Below, one piece after another: positions 491 to 11,415 of a stretch of 11,415 bases of DNA. The DNA comes from an uncultured Gemmatimonadota bacterium (lineage in GTDB: Bacteria; Gemmatimonadota; Gemmatimonadetes; Gemmatimonadales; Gemmatimonadaceae): positions 1 through 11,415 of the forward strand of contig CAMLIU010000023.1 of assembly GCA_946479995.1 (NCBI GenBank), given 5' to 3'. Both the position numbers and the translations under genes were made by a program. The notes beneath the pieces were generated by a model. It was not told the origin of the DNA and did no database searches. It worked only from the letters and a program-made list of their open reading frames with translations. Each line of letters starts with the position of its first letter. The stretch's first letter is position 1.

Positions 491-1648
491 TCACGTCGCC
501 CGCTCGTAGACCCGCCAGCGCATCCGCTCCCGCGCCCCCATTGCCCGCATCGGCTTGACGATCAGCTGGTTGTCCTCGAGCAGCCAGCTCGCCTCGGCGC
601 CGATCTTCCCCATCGCCAGCCCGCGGCGCATGACCTCGTGGGTGAACAGGGCGAGAATGCTCCTCGTGCGGTACGCCTTCTTCACCCCCAGCGCCATCAC
701 GCGCGCCGTGCGGATGGTCTTCTTGCCGCGCAGGATGCGCAGGAGCCCGAGGGGGAAGAGGCGGCCGCTCCGGTTCTTCGCCAGCGCCACGTTGTAGTCC
801 GGGACGGCGAGCATGAAGCCGGCGGGCTCCCCTTCCACCGACGCCATGAACGCGAGCTCCGGCCAGAGGAGGCGCTTCATGTCCTTCGCCATGTACTCGA
901 ACTCGGCGCGTGACATGGGGACGAAGCCCCAGTTCCGCTCCCACGCGTCGTTGTAGATCTCCCAGCAGGCTGCCACCTCGCGGTCGAAGCGGCGCGGATC
1001 GAGGTCGCGGAACTCCATGCGCCCGCTCTCCAGCGCACGCTCCGCCTGCCGCTTGACGAACTCCGGAAGCTCGTAGCCCGGCTCCGCGGCCGGAAACCAG
1101 AATGCCAGCAGGTCCTTCGCCTTCGCGAAGCCGGCGCTCTGGAGCAGCGTGTCGTAGTACGGCGGGTTCCAGGCCGTCATGAAGGTGGGCTGGTGCTCGT
1201 AGCCTTCCACGAGGAGGCCGCACTCGTAGTTCGTGCTGGGGTTCATCGGCCCCTGGATCGTCGTCAATCCGCGTCCGGCGAGCCAGTCCGCCGCCACGCG
1301 CAGCAGGAGGTCGGCGACGGCCTGATCGTCCACGGACTCGAAGAAGCCGAAGAAGCCGGTGCGATCACCGTGGAACTCGTTGTGGGCGCGGTTCTCGATC
1401 GCGGCGATCCGTCCGACCACCTTCCCCTCGCGCAGGGCGAGGAAGAGCTCGCGGTCCGCCTGCCGGTAGAAGGGATTCTTCTCGCGGTCCAGCGCATCGA
1501 ACACGGCGACACGAAGGGGCGCGACCCACTGCGGGTAGCGGCGCTTGTCGTACATGTCGTACGGAAAGGCGACGAAGCGCTTGAGGTCAGCGCGCGTCGT
1601 GACGGTACGAATCTCGAGAGGCACGATTTTCTTCCGGATGAGTGTCAT
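491..1648 (-). CDS. GNAT-fold acyltransferase, probable bacterial ceramide synthase (bCerS-like)
   Basis: Predicted 385-residue cytoplasmic protein of the acyl-CoA N-acyltransferase (GNAT) superfamily, resembling the long two-lobed family that includes E. coli YghO and, as I recall, Caulobacter CC_1154 (bCerS). That enzyme acylates the amine of 3-ketosphinganine to give 3-oxo-ceramide. Visible are an N-terminal block with AFPYDMYDKRRYPQWVAPLR (27-46), a GNAT-like strand-turn REGKVVGRIAAIEN (74-87), the family-type core GPMNPSTNYECGLLVEGY (133-150) followed by NPPYY (161-165), and a C-terminal second lobe with SWLLEDN (354-360). There is no signal peptide or membrane segment. The frame stays open upstream to 1852, but that extension is Arg/Ser-rich and overlaps the PAP2 gene; the ATG at 1648 starts directly before the conserved part. 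It is divergent from the PAP2 gene across 56 bp. Membership of the acyltransferase family is fairly sure; the ceramide role rests on neighbours. It could instead acylate another amine. Confidence 0.75.
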   Translation of the reverse strand: MTLIRKKIVPLEIRTVTTRADLKRFVAFPYDMYDKRRYPQWVAPLRVAVFDALDREKNPFYRQADRELFLALREGKVVGRIAAIENRAHNEFHGDRTGFFGFFESVDDQAVADLLLRVAADWLAGRGLTTIQGPMNPSTNYECGLLVEGYEHQPTFMTAWNPPYYDTLLQSAGFAKAKDLLAFWFPAAEPGYELPEFVKRQAERALESGRMEFRDLDPRRFDREVAACWEIYNDAWERNWGFVPMSRAEFEYMAKDMKRLLWPELAFMASVEGEPAGFMLAVPDYNVALAKNRSGRLFPLGLLRILRGKKTIRTARVMALGVKKAYRTRSILALFTHEVMRRGLAMGKIGAEASWLLEDNQLIVKPMRAMGARERMRWRVYERAT

Positions 1649-1704
1649 CCCGCAGTCCGCAGCGGGATGGCAGGCGCGTGCGCCAAGTGTAATACTGCCT
1701 TGCG
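1649..1704. promoter_or_regulatory. Divergent promoter region between GNAT and PAP2 genes
   Basis: These 56 bp separate two divergent start codons and must carry the promoters for both unless transcription begins elsewhere. An AT-rich island at 1688-1696 gives TAATAC on the plus strand (1690-1695), 9 bases before the PAP2 ATG, and TATTA on the minus strand, so one island could serve as a -10 element in both directions. A plus-strand transcript would be nearly leaderless; no Shine-Dalgarno is visible for either gene. Two inverted repeats lie nearby: CCCGC/GCGGG (1649-1666, 8-base loop) and GGCGC-GT-GCGCC (1673-1684). The second could be an operator or the stem of a 5' leader hairpin. No clear -35 hexamer is seen. 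Position is supported by gene layout; the elements are inference. Confidence 0.4.
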
Positions 1705-2607
1705 ATGAGCGTAGTCCCTCTTCCCTTCCCGACGATCGAGACCCCCGCCGACCGCGCGGCACGGTACTCCAACGCCGTGATCGCGACCTACCTCGCCGCG
1801 ACCGCCTGGCCCATGGCAGAGTATGCGCGCAGCAGCGGCGACGTGGTGCCACCGCTGGTTCATCTTGTCGCCCTGGCAGCCGCGGTTTCCGTAACGGCGG
1901 TCACGCCACCGGCGCTCCGACGGCTGCGCGATTTGCTGCCGCTCCTGATCGGTCCCTTCCTGTACGTCGAGCTGCGCTGGCTCATCCCCGCACTCGGCCA
2001 GCCGCATCACGACGCGCTCGTGCTGATGTGGGAACGAACGCTGTTCGGCGGTATACCCTCCTCCGCGTGGGCCCCCGCCATGCCGTGGCCCGCGCTGAGC
2101 GAGCTGCTGCACCTGGCGTACGCGTCGTACTACGCCATCGTGCTGGTACCGCCCATCGTGCTCTACGCGCGCGGGAGGCGTTCTGCCTTCGCGGCCACCA
2201 TGCTCGCGTTGACCATCGTCTACGGCGCGTGCTTCACGACGTACCTCTTCTTCCCGGTCGACGGGCCGCGCTACCTCGTCGGTCCGGCGAACGCACCCGC
2301 CGGCCCGATCCGGGCCTTCGTGCTGCACCTGCTCGAAGCGGGATCGTCCCGCGGCACCGCGTTCCCCTCGTCTCACGTGGCGGCCGCGGTCGTGGCGTCG
2401 CTTTGTGCGCTCGCCTTCCAGCGCAAGCTCGGTATCGTCGTCGCGGCGCTCACCGTGGGGCTCGCCCTCGGCACGGTGTACGGCGGCTTCCACTACGGCG
2501 TGGACGCCCTCGTTGGCGCGGTGCTCGGCGTCGCCTGCTGGCTGGTGGCGCGTCGCGCCTGGCGCTCACTGTCGCTTACCGGGCAGAGCGCCACCGCCGC
2601 CTCGTAG
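1705..2607 (+). CDS. PAP2_3/AUR1-like membrane phosphatase or phosphoceramide headgroup transferase
   Basis: Integral inner-membrane protein of 300 residues with about six hydrophobic segments (roughly 51-67, 77-93, 141-157, 160-181, 221-238, 242-284). The PAP2-type active site is visible: FFPVDGPRY (182-190, R189), GTAFPSSHVAA (217-227, H224) and GFHYGVDALVG (261-271, nucleophile H263 with D266). An N-terminal segment, HHDALVLMWERTLFGG (101-116), matches the pattern of PAP2_3, the family that includes fungal inositol-phosphorylceramide synthase AUR1. Such enzymes either dephosphorylate a lipid phosphate or move a phospho-headgroup from a phospholipid to ceramide. It lies between the ceramide-type acyltransferase and the synthase operon, so a ceramide substrate is likely, but it could be an undecaprenyl- or phosphatidate phosphatase. 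The ATG at 1705 is the first sensible start, with a -10-like TAATAC just upstream. Its 3' end overlaps the convergent PPTase gene by 115 bp. PAP2 fold: confident. Substrate: inference. Confidence 0.85.
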   Translation: MSVVPLPFPTIETPADRAARYSNAVIATYLAATAWPMAEYARSSGDVVPPLVHLVALAAAVSVTAVTPPALRRLRDLLPLLIGPFLYVELRWLIPALGQPHHDALVLMWERTLFGGIPSSAWAPAMPWPALSELLHLAYASYYAIVLVPPIVLYARGRRSAFAATMLALTIVYGACFTTYLFFPVDGPRYLVGPANAPAGPIRAFVLHLLEAGSSRGTAFPSSHVAAAVVASLCALAFQRKLGIVVAALTVGLALGTVYGGFHYGVDALVGAVLGVACWLVARRAWRSLSLTGQSATAAS

Positions 2608-3284
2608 CGGACCCCCGTCGCGGCGAGCTCGTTGGGCAGCGGAAGCCGGGTGAGGTCGGCGACGCGCATCCCGGCCGGCCGCTCCCCCGCGCGATGCGCG
2701 TCGAGCCCCTGGATTCCACAGCCGATCGCCTTCAGCTCGGCCTCGACGCGACACCAGTGGCGAAGGAACACCCGGTCTGGCTCCTCGCCCCGCTCCACCG
2801 CCCGCAGCAGCTCGGCGCGCTCGGTCGGTGCAAGCGTTCGTTCGGCCACGCGCTGCCAGCAGTCGATCGGCCGCGTGCGCTCGACGTCCACTCCCACCTC
2901 CCCTTCACGGCTCAGCGCGACGAGGAGCAGATCGTCACAGTGCGCCACGCTGAACCAGAGGGGCAAAGAGGCCGAACCCCTCGCCAGCGCTGGCTTGCCG
3001 AACTCTCCCTCCACCAGTCGCACGGCGGACGCCGCCACGGACTGCAGCGCGCCAAGCACCTCGCGCAGCACGGCACGACCCACGGCAAAACGCCGCGCCA
3101 CGACCTCGTTGGAATAGCCGGAGAGCCGCGACCGCTCGGCGCGAGAAAGCATCTTCGCCGCCCGCTCCAGCTCGTCCTCGCCGGCGAGCAGGCTCGCCGT
3201 GTACACCTTGACGTCCGCATCGCCGATGCGGGCGGCATCGGCCGACGGCCAGCGCAGGACGCGCGTACGCAGCGAACGGCTCAC
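2493..3284 (-). CDS. Sfp-type 4'-phosphopantetheinyl transferase
   Basis: Predicted 263-residue cytoplasmic enzyme that moves the 4'-phosphopantetheine arm from coenzyme A to a conserved serine of a carrier protein. The Sfp/Gsp-type motifs are present in order: FGKPAL (95-100), FSVAH (111-115), GVDVE (131-135, Mg2+ ligands D133 and E135) and WCRVEAELKAIGCG (177-190), the family WxxKEAxxKxxGxG box with K to R/V substitution before E181 and catalytic-loop K185 kept. Length and two-lobed order fit the Sfp class rather than the short AcpS class. It starts at a GTG overlapping the stop of the FAAL-ACP-oxoamine synthase gene as GTGA, so it is translationally coupled to it and very probably primes that protein's ACP (S626). 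Residues after about 238 form an Arg/Ser/Thr/Ala-rich tail encoded opposite the PAP2 gene and look like an extension into its antisense strand. Family: confident. Target: inferred. Confidence 0.92.
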   Translation of the reverse strand: MSRSLRTRVLRWPSADAARIGDADVKVYTASLLAGEDELERAAKMLSRAERSRLSGYSNEVVARRFAVGRAVLREVLGALQSVAASAVRLVEGEFGKPALARGSASLPLWFSVAHCDDLLLVALSREGEVGVDVERTRPIDCWQRVAERTLAPTERAELLRAVERGEEPDRVFLRHWCRVEAELKAIGCGIQGLDAHRAGERPAGMRVADLTRLPLPNELAATGVRYEAAVALCPVSDSERQARRATSQQATPSTAPTRASTP

Positions 3285-6200
3285 GGTCGGGAGCTCGCCT
3301 CCGCTGGCGGGCGGCGTTCCAGCGCGTCATCGAGCGCGGCGAGTGCCCGCTTCGTCGCCTCCACCGCGGCACGCAGCTGTTCCTCCGTGTGGGTGGACGC
3401 CACGAAGAAGCGCAGCCGCGCCTGGTCGTCCGCCACCGACGGAGCCACCATCGGCTGCACGTTGATCCCGGCATCGAACAGCATCGCGGAGAGCGTCGCC
3501 GCGCGCACCGACTCGCCGACGATCACCGGCACCACGGGTGTTCCCGCACTCGCCCCGGTGTCGAAGCCCGCCTCCTTGCACAGCGCGAGGAAGAGCGCGG
3601 CGCGTTCGTGCAGGCGCGAGACCCGTTCCGGCTCGGCCTCCAGCTTGTGCAGCGCCGCCACGGCCGCGGCGGCGTTGGCCGGCGTCATTCCTACGCTGAA
3701 GACGAAGCCGGGCGAGGTGTACTTGAGGTACTCCACCAGTGCGGCGCTGCCGGCGATGTACCCGCCGCAGCTCGCCAGCGACTTGCTCAACGTCCCCATC
3801 AGGATGTCGATGCGCCGCGCGTCGATTCCCGCGTGCTCCGTGATGCCGCGTCCCGTGGCGCCGAGCACGCCGAGGGAATGCGCCTCGTCCACCATGAGCA
3901 TGGCGTGGTGCCGCTCCTTCACCTCCACGAACCGCGCGAGGTCGGGGATGTCACCATCGGCACTGTACACTCCCTCGATGACGACGAGCGCGCGACGGTG
4001 CTGCGCCCGCACGCGACCCAGCATGCCATCGAGCGCCGCCCAGTCGTTGTGCGGGAAGACGAGCCGGCGCGCTCCGGAGAATTCGGCCCCCTGCATCGCG
4101 CTGTTGTGCACGAGCTGGTCGCAGAGCACCACGTCCTCGGGACCGAGGAGGTGCGAGATGGTGGAGACGTTGGCGGTCACTCCGCCGATGTAGGCGATGG
4201 CGTCCTCGGTGCCGAGGAAGCGCGAGATCTCGCGCTCGAGCTCGCGATGCACGGGCCGCTCGCCCGACACGACGCGGCTCGCCGACACCGACGTCCCGTA
4301 GCGCTCGATGGCCTCCTCCGCCGCGCGCGAGACGTCCGGGTCGCCCGACAGGCCGACGTAGTTGTAGTTGGCGAAGTTGATGAGGGTGCGGCCGCCGATC
4401 ACGGCCTCGCTTCCCGTGATCCCGTCGTGCACGTGGAAGAAGGGGCTCATGATGCCCTGCTCCTCCAGCGCATCCAGGCGGGCGCGCAGGGTGCGGTATT
4501 CGGCCCACTGCGACACGTCGGTGCTCGAGGCACTCGGCGGGCCGTACGTCGGCCACTGGGGCACGGCGACCTCGCGTGCCGGTGCCGCGTCGCCGTTGAG
4601 CGACGCCAGGTGTCGCGCGAGCGACCCGATGTCGGGCTGCTCCCAGAGGCGCGCCGGGTCGATGCGCCGTCCGAACCGTCCCTCGAGCGCCACCAGCATC
4701 CGGGTGGCGGCGAGCGAGTCGAGGCCGAGATCGCGCAGCCGCGTGCGGGGATCGAGCTTCGCCGGGTCCACGGCAAGCTCCTCGCGCACCCAGTCGATGA
4801 CGAACGCCGTGATCGCATCCTTCGGCGCCACGACGTCGCTCCCCTTCACCTTCCAGCGCCCCACCACCTCCAGCTCTCCGGCGAGGAACGCCACGCGGCA
4901 GGCGCGACGCTGGATCTTCCCACTGGAGGTGCGCGGGATCGTGTTCTGGCGAATGAGGACGATCTCGTCGGGGACGATGCCGATCGTGCCGGCGAGCTCG
5001 GTGCGCACCGCCTGGAAGAGCGCGCTGTCCTCCTCGCTCCTGTGGTGGCGGGTGACCTCGGCCACGAGCACGAGCCGCTCGCGCGAGTCGCCGGCCACGC
5101 TGAACGCGGCAGAATAGCCGGCGCGCAGGCTCGGGAAGCTGCGTTCGGCGGCCACCTCGATGTCGTGAGCGTAATAGTTCCGCCCTTCGAGGATGACGAG
5201 ATCCTTCAGGCGCCCGGTGACGACGAGCTGCCCACCCACGAACACGCCGAGGTCGCCGGTGCGCAGGAAGGATTCACCGGAGCCGGCGAGTCGCGCCTGG
5301 AAGGTCGCCGCCGTCTCCTCGGGGCGATTCCAGTAGCCCGCCGCGACGCTCGCGCCGGCGACCCAGATCTCGCCGACGTCACCATCCTCGCAGCGCACGC
5401 GCCGGTCGGGATCGACGATGGCCACCGTCTCGTCGGGGACCGGCAGGCCGGAGGCGACGAGCACGGCCTCCGGCGCGCCTTCACGCGGCTTGCGCAGCTC
5501 GCCCGACTCCAGCGCCCGGCGATCGGCGTGCACGAGCAGGGGCGGCCGTTCCGCCGGCCCGCCGGAGACGAGCAGCGTTCCTTCGGCGAGGCCGTAGCAC
5601 GGCAGGATCACGTCGCGACGAAGCCCGCTCGAGGCGAAGGCATCGCCGAAGCGCGCGATCGTGTCGGCACGAATGGGCTCCGCGCCATTGAACGACGTGC
5701 GCCACGCCGACAGGTCCAGCGACGCACGCTCCTCGTCCGTGATGCGCTCCACGCACAGGTCGTAGGCGAAGTTCGGGGCCCCGCTCGTCGTGGCGCGATA
5801 GCGGGACATCGCCTCCAGCCAGCGGAGGGGCCGCTGCAGGAAGGTCGCCGGCGCCATGAGGGCAGCGGAAAGTCCCGCATACACCGGCTGCAGGATGCCG
5901 CCGATGAGCCCCATGTCGTGGAACGGGGGCAGCCAGAACACGCCGTTGTCGCCGGGCCGGTGCGCCGACACGCGGTGGATGGTCGCCGAGTTGTGCAGCA
6001 GGTTGGAGTGGGCGAGCATCACGCCGCGCGGGTCGCCGGTGGACCCGGAGGTGTACTGCAGCATGGCGAGCGACGCGCCGGTGACGGATGGCGCACGCCA
6101 GCCCGCCGCGTTGCCCTCGGCCAGTCGCGCGGCGTCGAGCCAGGTGAGTCCCCCGAGCTCGGGGGTGAGGGCCAGCCAGCCGTCGAGGCGCGCCATCAGG

Positions 6201-6592
6201 GCATCGGACGCGAGCGCGAGGCGGGCACCACAGTCGGCGACGATCCGTGCGACACGTGGATCGGCGCGCCGGGGGTTGGGCGGATACGCCGGCACGGCGA
6301 CGGCGCCGGCGAGCAGGCAGCCGAAGAAGGCAGCGACGTACTCCAGCCCCGGCGGGACGAGCAGCACGACGCGATCCCCCGGCACCACGTGCTCCGCGAG
6401 GTGGGCAGCGATCGTCCGCGCGCGCGCCTGCAGCTGCGCGAAGGTCAGCGTGCCGTCCTCGCGGCCGTCGCTGTTGATGAACCGGAAGACGATGTGGTCG
6501 GGCTGCTGGGCCGCTCGGTAGTCGAGCAGGTCGACGAGAGTCCTCACTCCCGCGTCGCGCGCATCATCGCGCAGCAACTCACCCACGGTCAC
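3281..6592 (-). CDS. Fatty acyl-AMP ligase - acyl carrier protein - alpha-oxoamine synthase fusion (candidate one-piece serine palmitoyltransferase system)
   Basis: A 1103-residue soluble three-domain enzyme. Residues 1-580 are a fatty acyl-AMP ligase: ATP loop YTSGSTGDPRG (180-190), LPPFHDMGLIGG (221-232), YGLAEG (333-338), LRTGDLG (443-449), GRLKDLVILEGRNYYAHDIE (460-479) and catalytic K559 in TSSGKI. Residues 592-665 are an ACP with GLDSL, S626 being the phosphopantetheine site. After a Pro/Ala-rich linker, residues 710-1085 are a PLP alpha-oxoamine synthase: NYNYVGLSG (742-750), DQLVHNSAMQGAEFSG (825-840, H829 stacking on PLP), VDEAHSLGVLG (901-911, D902), GTLSKSLASCGGYIAG (933-948, Schiff-base K937) and RLRFF (1059-1063, substrate carboxylate). 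Together it would activate a fatty acid, hold it on its own ACP and condense it with an amino acid, losing CO2. Serine would give 3-ketosphinganine; alanine or glycine would give other aminoketones. It starts at a GTG overlapping the upstream stop (GTGA) and ends overlapping the PPTase start. Domains: confident. Amino-acid substrate: inferred from neighbours. Confidence 0.93.
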   Translation of the reverse strand: MTVGELLRDDARDAGVRTLVDLLDYRAAQQPDHIVFRFINSDGREDGTLTFAQLQARARTIAAHLAEHVVPGDRVVLLVPPGLEYVAAFFGCLLAGAVAVPAYPPNPRRADPRVARIVADCGARLALASDALMARLDGWLALTPELGGLTWLDAARLAEGNAAGWRAPSVTGASLAMLQYTSGSTGDPRGVMLAHSNLLHNSATIHRVSAHRPGDNGVFWLPPFHDMGLIGGILQPVYAGLSAALMAPATFLQRPLRWLEAMSRYRATTSGAPNFAYDLCVERITDEERASLDLSAWRTSFNGAEPIRADTIARFGDAFASSGLRRDVILPCYGLAEGTLLVSGGPAERPPLLVHADRRALESGELRKPREGAPEAVLVASGLPVPDETVAIVDPDRRVRCEDGDVGEIWVAGASVAAGYWNRPEETAATFQARLAGSGESFLRTGDLGVFVGGQLVVTGRLKDLVILEGRNYYAHDIEVAAERSFPSLRAGYSAAFSVAGDSRERLVLVAEVTRHHRSEEDSALFQAVRTELAGTIGIVPDEIVLIRQNTIPRTSSGKIQRRACRVAFLAGELEVVGRWKVKGSDVVAPKDAITAFVIDWVREELAVDPAKLDPRTRLRDLGLDSLAATRMLVALEGRFGRRIDPARLWEQPDIGSLARHLASLNGDAAPAREVAVPQWPTYGPPSASSTDVSQWAEYRTLRARLDALEEQGIMSPFFHVHDGITGSEAVIGGRTLINFANYNYVGLSGDPDVSRAAEEAIERYGTSVSASRVVSGERPVHRELEREISRFLGTEDAIAYIGGVTANVSTISHLLGPEDVVLCDQLVHNSAMQGAEFSGARRLVFPHNDWAALDGMLGRVRAQHRRALVVIEGVYSADGDIPDLARFVEVKERHHAMLMVDEAHSLGVLGATGRGITEHAGIDARRIDILMGTLSKSLASCGGYIAGSAALVEYLKYTSPGFVFSVGMTPANAAAAVAALHKLEAEPERVSRLHERAALFLALCKEAGFDTGASAGTPVVPVIVGESVRAATLSAMLFDAGINVQPMVAPSVADDQARLRFFVASTHTEEQLRAAVEATKRALAALDDALERRPPAEASSRP

Positions 6593-7635
6593 GTCGTCAA
6601 CTCCTCCGTCGTTGCCTGCTCCGGCCCACGCGTCCTGGTCTTCGGTGGCTTCAACCAGCGCGCCTCGACGTACGAATTATAGGTCTCCCTCAGCCCGTCG
6701 AGCAGGGGGACCTCGGATTCCCAGCCCAGCTCCTGCCGCGCGAGCGAGGAATCGCAGAGCCACCATCGCGGACGGGCGAGGAGCGCCTTGTTCCGGTTCA
6801 CGATCGTGGCGCGGCCGGTGATGGCGCTCACAATGTCGCCGCCGCGGGCCCCGATGTCGCGAAGCACCGCCGGCAGCGGCACGCCGATCGGCGACCGCCC
6901 GATGACGGCGTCGATGGCGTCATACAGCTCACCCCACGTGACGGGCTGCTCATTCGCCACGAAATACGTGCGCCCCGCAGCGACCGTTTGTTCGCCCGCG
7001 GCCAGCAGCGCCCGCACCAGGTCGCGAACGTGCACGATGGAGAGCGCATGATCGCGGGGAACGGCGCGGATCGCGACGCGGTGCCGCTCCTGGCGGAAGA
7101 CGTTCAGGAAGTCGCGATCACCGGGACCGTAGACCGACGATGGCCGCACGATGGTGATGGGCAGCACGTTGCGGTAGCGCAGCGTGGCCTGCTCCGCCTG
7201 CAGCTTGCTCCGTCCGTACGCCTCGATGGGCGCCGCGGGGTCGGACTCGCGCACGGGCGCATCCGCCGCCCTCGCCGGGCCTGCCGCCGCCTGCGACGAC
7301 ACCAGCACGACGCGTGGCGGTCGTCCGCCGCGACCGGCGAGCGCGGCGAGCACGTTTGCCGTGGGAATCACGTTTCCGGCGCGGAACTGGTCGAGCGTCC
7401 TGCCCTTCGTCACGCCCGCCAGGTGGTACACGTGAGTGGCGCCCTGCCAGATGGGCGACTCGCGCACGGAGCGATCATCCAGCAGGTCCGCTTCCCAGTG
7501 TCCCACCCGCGGGTCGCGACGGTCGCGCGCGGTCTCGGGACGCGCAAGGGCCCTCACCTCGGCTCCGCGCTCGAGCAGCGCATCCACTACGTGCCTGCCG
7601 ATGAATCCCGTGGAACCGGTGACGACGACGATCAT
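6589..7635 (-). CDS. NAD(P)-dependent epimerase/dehydratase-family reductase, probable CerR-like ceramide reductase
   Basis: Predicted 348-residue cytoplasmic extended-SDR protein. It has the N-terminal Rossmann motif TGSTGFIGRH (6-15), HLAG (71-74), VSSQAA (112-117, catalytic Ser), and Y140-x3-K144 in EAYGRSK, then RPSSVYGPGD (164-173), so the active site looks intact. An Arg after the second strand (ALARPE, 29-34) hints at NADP(H) preference. It leads the operon with the acyl ligase-ACP-oxoamine synthase, matching Caulobacter, where an epimerase-annotated protein (CerR) reduces the 3-keto group of oxo-ceramide. The frame is open up to 7707, but the Rossmann fold begins with the ATG at 7635, and the extra 24 codons are Pro/Arg-rich. 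An AGGAG at 7668-7664 is about 29 bases from this ATG, too far to be its ribosome site. It could instead be a nucleotide-sugar epimerase or a hydroxysteroid-type dehydrogenase; the context favours lipid reduction. Confidence 0.82.
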   Translation of the reverse strand: MIVVVTGSTGFIGRHVVDALLERGAEVRALARPETARDRRDPRVGHWEADLLDDRSVRESPIWQGATHVYHLAGVTKGRTLDQFRAGNVIPTANVLAALAGRGGRPPRVVLVSSQAAAGPARAADAPVRESDPAAPIEAYGRSKLQAEQATLRYRNVLPITIVRPSSVYGPGDRDFLNVFRQERHRVAIRAVPRDHALSIVHVRDLVRALLAAGEQTVAAGRTYFVANEQPVTWGELYDAIDAVIGRSPIGVPLPAVLRDIGARGGDIVSAITGRATIVNRNKALLARPRWWLCDSSLARQELGWESEVPLLDGLRETYNSYVEARWLKPPKTRTRGPEQATTEELTT

Positions 7636-7811: not shown

Positions 7812-8531
7812 GTGCGCCGCGTTTCCATCACCGTCGACTTCGAGCCCGACTGCCCGCCGTACCTCAGCTCGACGTTCCGCGGGATCGAGGAGGGCGCGCC
7901 GAAGCTGCTCGCCCTGTTTCACGAGCTTGGCGTTCGCGCCACCTACTTCACCACCGGCGAGGTAGCGGAGCGGTATCCCTCGGCGGTGCGTGCCCTCGTG
8001 GACGCCGGCCACGAGCTCGGCTGTCATGGCGTGACGCACACGGCGTTCGACACGCTCGACGAACGCACCGCGCGCTGGGAGATCGAGCAGTCGGTGAGCG
8101 TGCTCCGCTCGTTCGCCCCGGTCTCCAGCTTCCGCGCGCCCTACCTGCGCTTTCCGGAGCCGTACGTCCGGCTGCTCGAAGATGCCGGCTTCGCGCTCGA
8201 TTCCTCGCTCGCGAAGTACAAGGCGTCGTACCGTGCACCGCGCCTGCCGACCACGCTGACGCGCATTCCCGCGTCCATGACCTCGTCGGTACTGCGGCTG
8301 CCGGCGTGGATCCGCGATCCGTGGCTCCTTGCGCTGGCTGACCCGGTGGTGCTCTTCGTGCACCCGTGGGAGTTCGTGGACCTCACGCACGAAGACCTGC
8401 GCTACGATTGTCGCTTCCGCACCGGGGACGTGGCCCTTCGCTGCCTGCGCGAAGTGATCGAGGCGTTCGACCGGCGCGGAGCGGAGTTCGTCCCGATGCG
8501 CGAGCTCCCGCCCGTCCCGACGGCGGCATGA
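7812..8531 (+). CDS. Polysaccharide deacetylase-family protein (CE4-like NodB fold)
   Basis: Predicted 239-residue protein of the polysaccharide deacetylase superfamily, which removes N- or O-acetyl groups from sugars using a metal ion. Visible are TVDFEPD (7-13) at the catalytic Asp position (D9), CHGVTH (71-76) with the H-x3-H metal pair (H72, H76), FRAPYLR (107-113) for the RxPY motif, and LFVHPWEF (181-188) with the late active-site histidine (H184). The usual two adjacent Asp residues of motif 1 are replaced by D-F-E. No signal peptide is seen, so it probably acts in the cytoplasm on a lipid- or nucleotide-linked sugar. It begins at a GTG only 13 bases after the tRNA, with no room for a promoter, so it is probably expressed from the tRNA transcript or from a promoter inside the tRNA. 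Its stop overlaps the next start by 4 bp (ATGA). Substrate unknown. Confidence 0.82.
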   Translation: MRRVSITVDFEPDCPPYLSSTFRGIEEGAPKLLALFHELGVRATYFTTGEVAERYPSAVRALVDAGHELGCHGVTHTAFDTLDERTARWEIEQSVSVLRSFAPVSSFRAPYLRFPEPYVRLLEDAGFALDSSLAKYKASYRAPRLPTTLTRIPASMTSSVLRLPAWIRDPWLLALADPVVLFVHPWEFVDLTHEDLRYDCRFRTGDVALRCLREVIEAFDRRGAEFVPMRELPPVPTAA

Positions 8532-9493
8532 GCGCCATGACGCCGCGACTGCGCACCCTCGCGCACGTCGTGGCGGTGGTGATACTCGCCGCGCTGCTCG
8601 TGGTGGCGATCCGCCGCTTCGACCTCGCGCAGCTCACCCTCGTCCTCGCCACCGCCCGACCCGCGTGGGTGGTCCTCGCGGTGGCGTCGTACATGGCGAT
8701 CCTCCCGCTGTGGGCGCTGCAGTGGTGCGTGCTCGCGCCTCCGACCGGCGAGCCGCGCTTCCGGCGGATGCTCGGCGTCATCGCCATGTACTCCTCGGTG
8801 CTGAACACCACGCCCCTGCTCGTGGGCGAGGCGGCGGCGCTCGTCTTCCTCGTCGCGCGGGCGGGGATCTCGCGCGCCGCCGCGCTCTCCATGCTGGCGA
8901 TGGACCAGCTGGTGCTCGGCATCGCGAAGGTCACCGTGCTGGTGCTCGCGGCGTGGCTCGTCTCGCTCCCCCTCTGGATGGAGCGCGGCATGCGCGCGCT
9001 GAGCGTTGCCGTGGCGATGCTGCTCGCGGCATTGCTCGCCGTGGCCTGGGGGGATCGCACCGTGGCACGCGTCGCGCAGCGCCTGCCCACGCGAGGGGGC
9101 CGTGCACTTCACGCCCTGGCAGGTGCGCTGGCTCCCCTTCGCTCGCCCTGGCGCGGTGGAAGCTCGCTGCTCCTCGCGCTGCTCAAGAAGCTGGCCGAGA
9201 TCGTCGCCATCCTCTGCATCCAGCGCGCCTTCGGCGTCGCGCTCCCCTTCGGCAGCGCCGTGCTGGTCCTCGCCGCCCTCAACCTGGCGACGCTGCTGCC
9301 CATCGTGCCGGGCAACGTGGGCGTGTACGAGGCGGCGATCGTGGTGGCGTATGCGCATCTCGGCGTGGACGCCGAGCGCGCGCTCGGGATGGCGCTCGTC
9401 CAGCACGCCTGCTACTTCGTCGCCCTCGGCCTTCCCGGTTACGGCTGGCTGGCGCGCGGCGCGAGATCCCGCAGCGCGGCAGCCTCGCCGTAA
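8528..9493 (+). CDS. UPF0104 / lysylphosphatidylglycerol synthase TM-region-like membrane protein
   Basis: Predicted 321-residue inner-membrane protein with roughly seven to eight hydrophobic segments (starting near residues 11, 46, 82, 122, 155, 212, 242 and 290). It carries the two re-entrant-loop motifs of the LPG_synthase_TM / UPF0104 family: TTPLLVGEAAAL (94-105, E101) and LLPIVPGNVGVYEAA (256-270, E268). This matches the flippase-like domain of MprF and of stand-alone AglD-neighbour proteins, with no soluble aminoacyl-transfer domain. Such proteins are thought to move lipids or lipid-linked sugars across the membrane. The ATG at 8528 overlaps the deacetylase stop (ATGA), so the two are co-translated and probably share a pathway, for example trimming and then moving a glycolipid. 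The frame is open upstream from 8366, but that part is Arg/Pro-rich and lies inside the deacetylase gene. The 3' end overlaps the convergent glycosyltransferase by 55 bp. Family: good. Substrate: not visible. Confidence 0.82.
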   Translation: MSAMTPRLRTLAHVVAVVILAALLVVAIRRFDLAQLTLVLATARPAWVVLAVASYMAILPLWALQWCVLAPPTGEPRFRRMLGVIAMYSSVLNTTPLLVGEAAALVFLVARAGISRAAALSMLAMDQLVLGIAKVTVLVLAAWLVSLPLWMERGMRALSVAVAMLLAALLAVAWGDRTVARVAQRLPTRGGRALHALAGALAPLRSPWRGGSSLLLALLKKLAEIVAILCIQRAFGVALPFGSAVLVLAALNLATLLPIVPGNVGVYEAAIVVAYAHLGVDAERALGMALVQHACYFVALGLPGYGWLARGARSRSAAASP

Positions 9494-10572
9494 TAGCGCA
9501 GGTGCAGGTCGGCCACGTCTGGCCAGTCGAAGTCGGGAGGCACGGCGCGATTGTGCGCTGCCATGTACTCGCGGAACGGTGCTTCGATTGCCAGGCGTGA
9601 GATCGCCCTCGCCAGCTCCGGCTCGTCCCGCACGAGAAGCCCGTCCACTCCGCGCACGATGAAGTCGCGTGCCCCGCCGGCGAGCATCGCGACCACCGGC
9701 AGGCCGGCGGCACGCGCCTCCAGCGCCGCGATGCCGAATGACTCGCGCTCGCTCGGCAGCACGAATGCGTGCGTCCGGTGATAGAGGTCGCGAAGCGCTT
9801 CCCGATCCATGTGCCCCGGCAGCTCGACCATCGTTCCCACGTCCAGCGCGTCAGCGAGACGGCGGAGGGCACGGCGGTCGGGGCCATCCCCGGCGATGAT
9901 GAGCCGCATCCGCGGCGACCCGCCGGTGAACCGCACGGCGCTCGCAAAGGCGCGGATCAGCCGCTCCGGCCGCTTCTTGCGCGAGAGACGCATCGCGGTG
10001 ACGAACACGATTTCGTCGCCGCGCGGGGAAGCGGGACTGCCCGTTCGCCACCAGGACACGTCGATCCCGTTCGGCAGCACGCCCACCGCCGCGCCGGGAA
10101 TCCACTGCGCCGCCTGCGCGGCCACCACGCTGCTCACCGCACTGAGCAGGATGCGTCCCCTGGCCCATGTGAACAGCGCTTCGCTAGCGCCGAGGATGAA
10201 CGAGCTGCGGTGCAGCATGGAGTGGAAGGTCACGAGCGACGCCGCGCCGGCGCGCGCACCGGCCAGGGCTCCCGCATACGCGACCGGTGAGATCACACTC
10301 GCATGGGCATGCACGACGTCGAACCCCTCGCCGCGAATGACGTCGCCGAGACGCGCCATGGCGCGAGGGGTGAAGGCGAAGCCGGCGCCCGGCGCCAGCA
10401 CGGCAGGCACGCGATGCACCGGCACGCCGTCCACCATGTCCGGACCGCGCGTGGTCGTGATCACGCGGGCATCCACTCCGCGCGCCCGCAGCGCGAGCGC
10501 GAGGTCGCGCAGGTGCAGCTCGATCCCTCCCTGCCGTGGCAGGAACCAGTCGCAGACGAGGGCGACGCGCAC
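9439..10572 (-). CDS. Group 1 (GT4, GT-B fold) glycosyltransferase
   Basis: Predicted 377-residue retaining glycosyltransferase that moves a sugar from a nucleotide-sugar donor to a lipid or glycan acceptor at the cytoplasmic face of the membrane. The N-terminal acceptor lobe has LPRQGGIELH (11-20), the family's glycine-rich loop. The C-terminal donor lobe has VTAMRLSRKKRPERLI (191-206), the phosphate-binding Arg-Lys region, IIAGDGP (225-231), and ERESFGIAALEARAAGLP (275-292), whose E277-x7-E285 is the GT4 signature. It has no membrane spans. The start is a GTG at 10572, 12 bases after the stop of the upstream Wzi-like gene, so both are likely in one transcript. Its end runs 55 bp into the convergent membrane-protein gene. 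Donor and acceptor are unknown; with a ceramide locus nearby, glycosylation of a sphingolipid is one possibility and capsule or O-antigen another. Family: very confident. Confidence 0.92.
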   Translation of the reverse strand: MRVALVCDWFLPRQGGIELHLRDLALALRARGVDARVITTTRGPDMVDGVPVHRVPAVLAPGAGFAFTPRAMARLGDVIRGEGFDVVHAHASVISPVAYAGALAGARAGAASLVTFHSMLHRSSFILGASEALFTWARGRILLSAVSSVVAAQAAQWIPGAAVGVLPNGIDVSWWRTGSPASPRGDEIVFVTAMRLSRKKRPERLIRAFASAVRFTGGSPRMRLIIAGDGPDRRALRRLADALDVGTMVELPGHMDREALRDLYHRTHAFVLPSERESFGIAALEARAAGLPVVAMLAGGARDFIVRGVDGLLVRDEPELARAISRLAIEAPFREYMAAHNRAVPPDFDWPDVADLHLRYYGEAAALRDLAPRASQP

Positions 10573-10584
10573 GGGCTGTCGCGC

Positions 10585-11415
10585 CTAGCGGTCCAGCCGC
10601 ATGGCGAGGTCGAGCCGGTAGGAATGCCGTCGCGCAGCCGTGAAGTCCGCATTGCGGATCCGCTCCGCGCCGGCGCGCGCGATCAGGGTGAGCCCGCCAG
10701 GCTGCGGATACTCGACCGACGCCACGATCCGGTCGCGAAGCTCGTTCGTCACGGTGCCCACGCGATGGAGATCGAAGCGCGTCAGCACGTCCTGGACGAC
10801 GTAATCGGAACGGCTGTACAGCTCCGCCCTGCCACCGAGCGCCACGCGCGCTCCCTGCTGTCCGTGCCAGGTCACCGTCCCGCCGAAGGCCTTCGCATCG
10901 GGACCGAGCTCGTCGCCGAGCAGGAGACCGTGCGTCGTGATCCCGTTCGACAATGGCCCGTGCGTGTAGGTGCGCACGCCCATGTGCGCCGCCGCCAGGC
11001 GAAGCGAGAATGCCGATCCGCCAACGCTCGGCAGGAGGGCGGAAAAGGTCTGCGATCCGTCCCATCCGAACAGCGTCGGGATGCGGTGCACGTCGAAGTC
11101 GTCGATCAGCAGCTCGGTGGCCAGCGTGAGGCCGCCCAGGCTCGCGAGGCGCAGGCGCCCATTCACCCCGAGCAGCTTGTCGGACTCGACGTCCATCGGC
11201 CGTGTGGGATCCGAGTAGTTGTGCCGGCGGAAGATGTCCACGAAGGGGAGGAAGTCGATCAGCCGGTCGCTGAACGACGCGTCGGGCGCGCCGGCGCCCC
11301 CGAAGTGATTCATGAACGTGGCGCCCAGCTCGAGTGCGCGGTGCGGGCGCACGCTCACCTTGTACGCCAGCAGCCGGGAATGCGATCGCACCTCGCTCCG
11401 GCCGAGGTCGGCGAG
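10585..11415 (-). CDS. Probable Wzi-like capsule-assembly outer-membrane beta-barrel, C-terminal part (cut by right edge)
   Basis: The reading frame is open to the right edge, so this is the last 277 residues of a larger protein; a GTG at 11391 is inside the frame and is unlikely to be the true start. The sequence has alternating polar and hydrophobic strands separated by Gly/Asp-rich turns, as in outer-membrane beta-barrels. The segment order resembles the Wzi (capsule assembly) family: VRPHRALELGATFMNHFGG near the visible start, a FLPFVDIFRRHNYSD block, a GVNGRLRL strand, and later LGDELGPDAKAFGGTVTW. It ends in YRLDLAMRLDR, a strand with a charged rather than aromatic last residue. Wzi binds capsule polysaccharide at the outer-membrane surface. 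It precedes the GT4 gene by 12 bp, consistent with a surface-glycan operon. The barrel class is likely; the Wzi name is moderate and another barrel family is possible. Confidence 0.6.
   Translation of the reverse strand, partial: LADLGRSEVRSHSRLLAYKVSVRPHRALELGATFMNHFGGAGAPDASFSDRLIDFLPFVDIFRRHNYSDPTRPMDVESDKLLGVNGRLRLASLGGLTLATELLIDDFDVHRIPTLFGWDGSQTFSALLPSVGGSAFSLRLAAAHMGVRTYTHGPLSNGITTHGLLLGDELGPDAKAFGGTVTWHGQQGARVALGGRAELYSRSDYVVQDVLTRFDLHRVGTVTNELRDRIVASVEYPQPGGLTLIARAGAERIRNADFTAARRHSYRLDLAMRLDR

Follow-up and report, generated by a model that had tools for sequence, protein, structure and literature searches.

The closest described route to bacterial ceramide is that of Caulobacter crescentus (CC_1162-1165 and CC_1154), which, like its counterpart in Escherichia coli B, comprises an enzyme loading acyl chains onto an acyl carrier protein (ACP), the ACP itself, an alpha-oxoamine synthase (AOS), an epimerase-type reductase and a GNAT acyltransferase. 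E. coli B counterparts have been listed for all five Caulobacter ceramide genes, with yghO as that of CC_1154 (PMC9386255). Sphinganine is also made by the SgaAB(C) cluster of Pseudomonas fluorescens MYb115, where an iterative polyketide synthase (PKS) is described as the source of the acyl chain for a PKS-linked AOS (PMC12134224). Here, these systems are compared with a locus on a stretch of 11,415 nt (the window; contig CAMLIU010000023.1, GCA_946479995.1) from an uncultured Gemmatimonadota bacterium of the Gemmatimonadaceae. The locus encodes a GNAT protein, an epimerase-type short-chain dehydrogenase/reductase (SDR), a 4'-phosphopantetheinyl transferase (PPTase), a PAP2 protein, and a fusion of fatty acyl-AMP ligase (FAAL), ACP and AOS in a single chain, as assigned with Pfam. 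Judged from sequence, it probably specifies a pathway to ceramide (N-acyl long-chain base) whose committed enzyme would be this self-loading fusion of polyketide-type parts. L, G and P numbers denote loci, genomes and proteins as labelled in our analysis.

Counterparts of all five enzymes were found in the window by BLASTP against the E. coli B cluster, which was taken from strain REL606. The GNAT protein pairs with YghO, the FAAL domain with AasR (35% identity, 9e-82), the AOS domain with serine palmitoyltransferase (Spt; 34%, 4e-60), the ACP domain, by Pfam, with the free ACP, and the SDR with the counterpart of CC_1164 (28%, 3e-26, a weak match in a very large superfamily). The window differs from this pathway in carrying the first three activities in one chain, in an AOS and probably also a FAAL of another lineage, and in having its own PPTase and a PAP2 gene; unlike in the Caulobacter pathway, no LptFG-type or kinase genes were found among the window's ten scanned proteins. 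The link to the five-gene Caulobacter pathway, drawn in an earlier, sequence-only reading of the window, therefore stands for the set of enzymes and fails for the origin of the AOS, which is of another, polyketide-linked lineage.

The most telling comparison was that between the GNAT protein and YghO, because no Pfam family matches YghO and the two proteins are similar over almost their whole length (33% identity over window residues 11-383 of 385, E = 2e-67). The resemblance to the bacterial ceramide synthase bCerS that had been suggested for this protein, as against an unrelated family, was upheld by this match, and we propose it as a predicted bCerS-like N-acyltransferase. Searching PDB sequences with the GNAT protein gave nothing significant (one chance match, E = 0.93), and a profile search gave 0 matches. 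In a tree of the family, a 26-row clade (support 100/100) comprised 13 GNATs from fusion loci, six from Spt loci and seven others.

A survey of 395 Gemmatimonadota genomes by profile searches, with cut-offs of 1e-40 for the GNAT family, 1e-130 for canonical Spt and 1e-100 for the fusion, revealed the GNAT family in 210 genomes and canonical Spt in 154. Matches to the fusion profile were present in 38 genomes, as a whole fusion in 12, as the AOS part in two and as the FAAL part in 24; among the whole fusions, that of G082 lies in two frames and that of G036 is enlarged by an insert. The fusion was also found in six planctomycete loci. The co-occurrence of the genes, for which a genome survey had been suggested, was borne out: GNAT was present in 153 of the 154 Spt genomes (p = 2e-59) and in all 12 whole-fusion genomes (p = 5e-4), in Fisher tests that treat genomes as independent though they are related and many of them are drafts. 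Canonical Spt was found in 0 of the 12 whole-fusion genomes (p = 4e-3), and among GNAT genomes fusion and Spt were mutually exclusive (p = 6e-8). Other AOSs of the 12 fusion genomes, collected to E = 1e-20 and placed in a quick tree, were Kbl-like in 12/12, with one further sequence on the BioF side (G181) and two outside the Spt clade (G001, G036); the Kbl-like AOS of G001 passes the glycine C-acetyltransferase cut-off.

The ancestry of the AOS domain was resolved in a tree of 57 sequences sampling 11 of the 12 Gemmatimonadota fusion genomes (PfSgaB and Npun_R3567 not included). The canonical Spts of E. coli, Sphingomonas, Sphingobacterium and 12 Gemmatimonadota formed one clade (99/97) together with one AOS from a Priestia plasmid. 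All 18 fusion AOSs fell outside it, in a separate clade of 26 rows (100/100), whose eight remaining members were five AOSs that adjoin a PKS or form part of one (L187 as annotated, L182, L183, L188, L074) and three cyanobacterial AOSs next to a FAAL gene. The fusion AOS thus belongs to a PKS-linked AOS clade. A single clade of fusion AOSs and canonical Spts was rejected (approximately unbiased (AU) test, p = 1e-45); a single clade for all fusions was only marginally rejected (p = 0.043).

This implies that a simple joining of Caulobacter AasR, AcpR and Spt does not explain the fusion, whose AOS domain is of the other lineage. The three activities are indeed the same, and both enzymatic domains share about a third of their residues with the E. 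coli proteins; the AU test nevertheless rejects such a joining for the AOS domain. The FAAL domain grouped with FAALs other than AasR, many of them within long multidomain proteins, in a quick tree in which AasR forms a single long branch, and it matched PDB 7r7g, named a polyketide synthase, with 557 bits. We regard a derivation from joined Caulobacter-type genes as extremely improbable.

With SgaAB(C), for which L187, L182, L183, L188 and L074 serve as stand-ins, the window has the PKS-linked AOS lineage in common; it differs in that the acyl chain would enter via the FAAL and not via an iterative PKS, and in the presence of bCerS- and CerR-like genes. At L182:1530-12553 (G012), a type I PKS, an AOS, a short-chain reductase and a bCerS-like GNAT follow one another. 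This is an Sga-type cluster that includes a ceramide-synthase-like gene, and it connects the PKS-linked AOSs with the acyltransferase family of the window's GNAT. The sponge swf clusters were considered as AOS relatives and discarded, swfB being described as a reductase-sulphotransferase (PMC3908369). As separate observations, the cyanobacterial locus L006:9959-14310 carries a FAAL gene, an ACP-AOS gene and a short-chain reductase in succession, an unfused or split version of the set, and L072 also has FAAL, AOS and a similar reductase. The Priestia megaterium plasmid AOS (L201:1935-3149), 40% identical to E. coli Spt, is unexpected in a Firmicute.

The catalytic-type residues of the AOS were found aligned at His829, Asp902, His905, Lys937 and Arg1061, which we take to be the stacking His, the Asp-x-x-His pair, the pyridoxal 5'-phosphate (PLP) Lys and the Arg; they are common to other AOSs too. 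The ACP motif GLDSL, with Ser626, is intact. As to the amino acid used, the same enzymes could act on alanine, glycine or cysteate and yield 1-deoxyceramide or another N-acyl amino-ketone lipid. The position of the AOS outside the canonical Spt clade fits this possibility, as do its residues 829-831, which read HNS where five of the six Spts shown have HAS, and the detection in Black Sea waters of 1-deoxyceramides that were linked to bacteria (PMC11334938). The nearest solved enzyme is, however, the Spt 3a2b (9.7e-73, as against 1.2e-42 for the cysteate enzyme 28eh), and the adjoining PAP2 gene suggests a C1 hydroxyl bearing a headgroup. The PKS-linked PfSgaB is moreover reported to have proven serine palmitoyltransferase activity and to use serine almost exclusively over alanine and glycine (PMC12134224), and serine is therefore favoured as substrate of the fusion. 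An amino acid other than serine appears unlikely.

The SDR was placed by a tree with few outgroups. A 13-row clade (100/99) united ten SDRs of fusion loci with three SDRs lying 4-6 kb from an Spt (L148, L149, L184), and the SDRs of tight Spt operons joined it at 90/81. The suggestion that the window's reductase is CerR-like and not of an unrelated family is hence favoured by its grouping with SDRs near Spt, the pairwise identity being low. CerR of Caulobacter has been reported to be periplasmic (PMC11087976).

In the neighbourhoods of the fusion, GNAT lay within 4 kb in nine of the 12 Gemmatimonadota fusion genomes and SDR in ten; GNAT was found in four of five planctomycete fusion genomes searched, and both genes are near the fusion in L011 and L012. 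This linkage argues against a secondary-metabolite FAAL-ACP-AOS synthase that merely adjoins unrelated GNAT, SDR and PAP2 genes, an explanation which would agree with the frequency of similar FAALs in long multidomain proteins and with AOS relatives beside or inside PKSs, and which we consider very improbable. Stand-alone canonical Spt is accompanied by GNAT, SDR and PAP2 relatives in six Gemmatimonadota loci (L157, L159, L160, L163, L165, L167). These operons resemble the window in GNAT and SDR, by tree, and in PAP2, by similarity; they differ in their stand-alone canonical Spt, with no FAAL or ACP matched within the 17-18 kb fetched. Taken together, the AOS, FAAL, GNAT and SDR trees indicate that the later enzymes of the pathway (GNAT and SDR) are related to those of Spt loci and that its loading and condensing part has a different origin. 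As side observations, the genomes G260, G199, G174 and G093 carry a bCerS-like GNAT but neither a recognised Spt nor the fusion, and L150 and L151 have a further copy that is not near Spt.

Desaturase genes (PF00487) with the sphingolipid delta4-desaturase domain PF08557 were located within 1.3 kb of the fusion in three of the 12 genomes (G245, G383, G181). The domain occurs in 20 of the 395 genomes, namely in 5/12 fusion genomes versus 15/383 others (p = 1e-4) and in 12/154 Spt genomes (p = 0.06 for Spt alone), and 17 of the 20 have Spt or the fusion (p = 8e-5). In the 1647-aa fusion at L181:6605-11548 (G036), an acyl-CoA dehydrogenase (PF02771, PF02770, PF00441) lies between FAAL and ACP. 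It could introduce the delta4 double bond before condensation, since dehydrogenation of the acyl-ACP at C2-C3 would give that same bond.

All five genes named in the sequence-only reading within about 7 kb were confirmed as open reading frames at the coordinates first noted, and its domain calls (GNAT, epimerase-type reductase, acyl-activating/ACP/AOS protein, PPTase, PAP2) were correct by Pfam. The features are listed in Table 1. Start and stop codons overlap between the successive minus-strand genes for SDR, fusion and PPTase, the PPTase start overlapping the fusion stop. Three other loci repeat the gene order SDR-fusion-PPTase-PAP2-GNAT: L168, L178, where the fusion is in two frames, and L170, where contig ends cut SDR and GNAT. 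The fusion, GNAT and PAP2 proteins have close relatives in metagenomes, some named Gemmatimonadaceae; P0133 (94% to the GNAT) and P0026 (80% to the fusion) both point to this family. Because close relatives exist and the order recurs, the gene set is not a chance assembly. The convergent PPTase and PAP2 genes overlap by 115 bp (window 2493-2607), and an overlap of about 109 bp is likewise present in L168, L170 and L178.

Table 1. Coordinates of the predicted ceramide genes in the window, and of PF08557 genes near the fusion in other loci.
Feature	Coordinates	Strand	Domains and remarks
Epimerase-type SDR, CerR-like reductase, 348 aa	6589..7635	-	PF01370
FAAL-ACP-AOS fusion, 1103 aa, proposed self-loading 3-oxosphinganine synthase	3281..6592	-	PF00501, PF00550, PF00155
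FAAL domain, residues 1-580	4853..6592	-	PF00501 at residues 24-421
ACP domain, residues 599-662	4607..4798	-	PF00550 6.5e-15; proposed phosphopantetheine site Ser626 at 4715-4717
AOS domain, residues 699-1090	3323..4498	-	PF00155 at 736-1079; PLP Lys937
PPTase	2493..3284	-	PF01648 4.1e-10; proposed ACP activator
PAP2_3-family membrane protein, proposed lipid phosphatase or headgroup transferase	1705..2607	+	PF14378 1.5e-17, PF01569
GNAT N-acyltransferase, bCerS-like, 385 aa	491..1648	-	PF00583 1.9e-5, above cut-off
PF08557 gene near fusion	L173:7511-8587		starts beside fusion
PF08557 gene near fusion	L174:12726-13814		starts beside fusion
PF08557 gene near fusion	L179:5640-6596		lies 1.25 kb from fusion

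Polysaccharide-type genes flank the locus (window 7812-11415 and 1-435), encoding a deacetylase, a flippase-like protein, GT4, Wzi and RfbB, and relatives of the deacetylase, flippase-like and GT4 genes adjoin the fusion in L168, L178 and L181. Relatives of the first two also adjoin stand-alone Spt and GNAT in L148, L149 and L186, whose GNATs are 54-56% identical to that of the window. These window neighbours would agree with a long-chain base or ceramide that serves to anchor or carry a surface polysaccharide and is not a bulk membrane lipid, as would the position of the AOS relative L187 between a PKS and capsule-type export genes, an arrangement for which we take rkpG to be a parallel. Around the fusion in L171, L172, L173, L176 and L177, however, no deacetylase, flippase-like or GT4 relatives were found (L177 has a GT2 gene), and the PAP2 gene, together with the desaturase and CDP-alcohol transferase genes of some genomes, suggests ordinary membrane lipids. 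A role as polysaccharide anchor thus seems rather unlikely.

The PAP2 protein had been described as AUR1-like. Its family assignment held (PF14378, PF01569 and the H-H-D triad, with H224, H263 and D267 invariant in all 22 aligned sequences including the window's), as in phosphoinositol dihydroceramide synthase and AUR1-type PAP2_3 proteins. The closer likeness to AUR1 is weak, the best ceramide-named match, NF052609, scoring 19.1 bits versus a cut-off of 480 and thus below the AUR1/inositol-phosphoceramide synthase cut-off; in G001, the NF052609 match (20 bits) is likewise the PAP2 gene of the locus. A PDB search with the PAP2 profile gave 0 matches. The protein may be a lipid phosphatase or headgroup transferase, for both of which it is a candidate by family. 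In G205, the PAP2 relative lies on a small separate contig together with GNAT. At L171:2608-5520, a phosphoenolpyruvate mutase-nucleotidyltransferase protein and a CDP-alcohol phosphotransferase are encoded upstream of the fusion, which suggests a phosphonate headgroup; L177 also has a CDP-alcohol transferase.

From the domains, the catalytic-type residues, the GNAT-YghO homology, the ancestry that GNAT and SDR have in common with their relatives near Spt, the lack of a canonical Spt match in fusion genomes and the polyketide-linked descent of the AOS, all of which the sequence supports, we infer the chemistry of the locus as follows. The PPTase would arm the ACP at Ser626; the FAAL domain would adenylate a free fatty acid and load the acyl-AMP onto the ACP of the same chain; and the AOS would condense the acyl-ACP with serine, the likeliest amino acid, to 3-oxosphinganine. 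The GNAT would then N-acylate and the SDR reduce the 3-keto group, in either order, with the PAP2 protein as a candidate for adding a phosphate headgroup or processing one. The order of N-acylation and reduction is disputed in Caulobacter (PMC11087976). Three rhodobacterial Spts are reported to prefer acyl-ACP as substrate (PMC9386255), and the fusion can therefore be read as the same relay within one chain.

Several results weigh against ceramide synthesis by the locus. By its descent, the AOS falls outside Spt; it scored 343 bits with BioF and 331 with the Spt models and passed none of the listed NCBIfam cut-offs (331 versus 640 and 302 versus 500 bits on the Spt models). Four canonical Gemmatimonadota Spts likewise fail the NCBIfam Spt cut-offs, of which E. 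coli Spt passes one, and because the window AOS and these canonical Spts are alike in this, NCBIfam cannot decide the identity of the AOS. The place of PfSgaB in the AOS clade is assumed, via PKS-AOS pairs such as L187, and a putative cyanobacterial Spt, Npun_R3567, is reported to have given no 3-ketosphinganine in E. coli (PMC8895605). The SDR assignment leans on linkage. PPTase relatives were recognised in only four of the 12 fusion loci (L168, L169, L170, L178) and PAP2 relatives in five, in BLAST searches of the fetched regions with the window proteins. The GNAT of G383 is on another contig, contig ends conceal any linkage in G205 and G181, the planctomycete G008 is without GNAT, and GNAT is near the fusion in only two of the four planctomycete genomes bearing it. 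The window's own GNAT clade includes the seven rows from loci without a visible synthase, and this GNAT type may therefore serve another role as well. Finally, 45 of the 210 GNAT genomes have neither fusion nor high-scoring Spt. Among 14 of these that were checked, G087 has a cut-off Spt fragment and G384 a divergent Spt near GNAT; four (G089, G221, G109, G056) gave matches of 378-390 bits. None of the others exceeded 368 bits, a score close to that of second, Kbl-like matches in Spt genomes (361-364 bits; G322, G175).

This kind of pathway is already known; our literature searches turned up no example in which its committed enzyme is fused and polyketide-linked. A search pairing fatty acyl-AMP ligase with serine palmitoyltransferase returned no report of such a fusion, and among the papers listed in a second one the fused enzyme was named in no title or abstract opening, the supplements of a 40-phylum Black Sea survey lying outside that search. 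The wider 'clade B' of that survey may include such fusion proteins. Among the titles listed in a search that did not extend to these supplements, none concerned Gemmatimonadota sphingolipid genes.

The simplest history, given the trees, would be that the fusion replaced an ancestral Spt. We lean slightly towards a fuller account, in which a non-orthologous, self-loading single-chain synthase of polyketide-type parts replaced Spt in a working ceramide pathway, more than once or with transfer between Gemmatimonadota and Planctomycetota, and in which the acyl-CoA dehydrogenase of the G036/L181 variant introduces the sphingosine delta4 bond ahead of condensation; in three other loci a delta4-desaturase-family gene is found near the fusion instead. 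The single 1103-aa protein lets loading and condensation be assayed jointly, and surveys keyed on canonical Spt alone could overlook fusion-bearing bacteria. The locus and its relatives point to ceramide synthesis across many Gemmatimonadota, and they suggest that sphingolipid synthesis can exchange its committed enzyme and keep the enzymes that follow.

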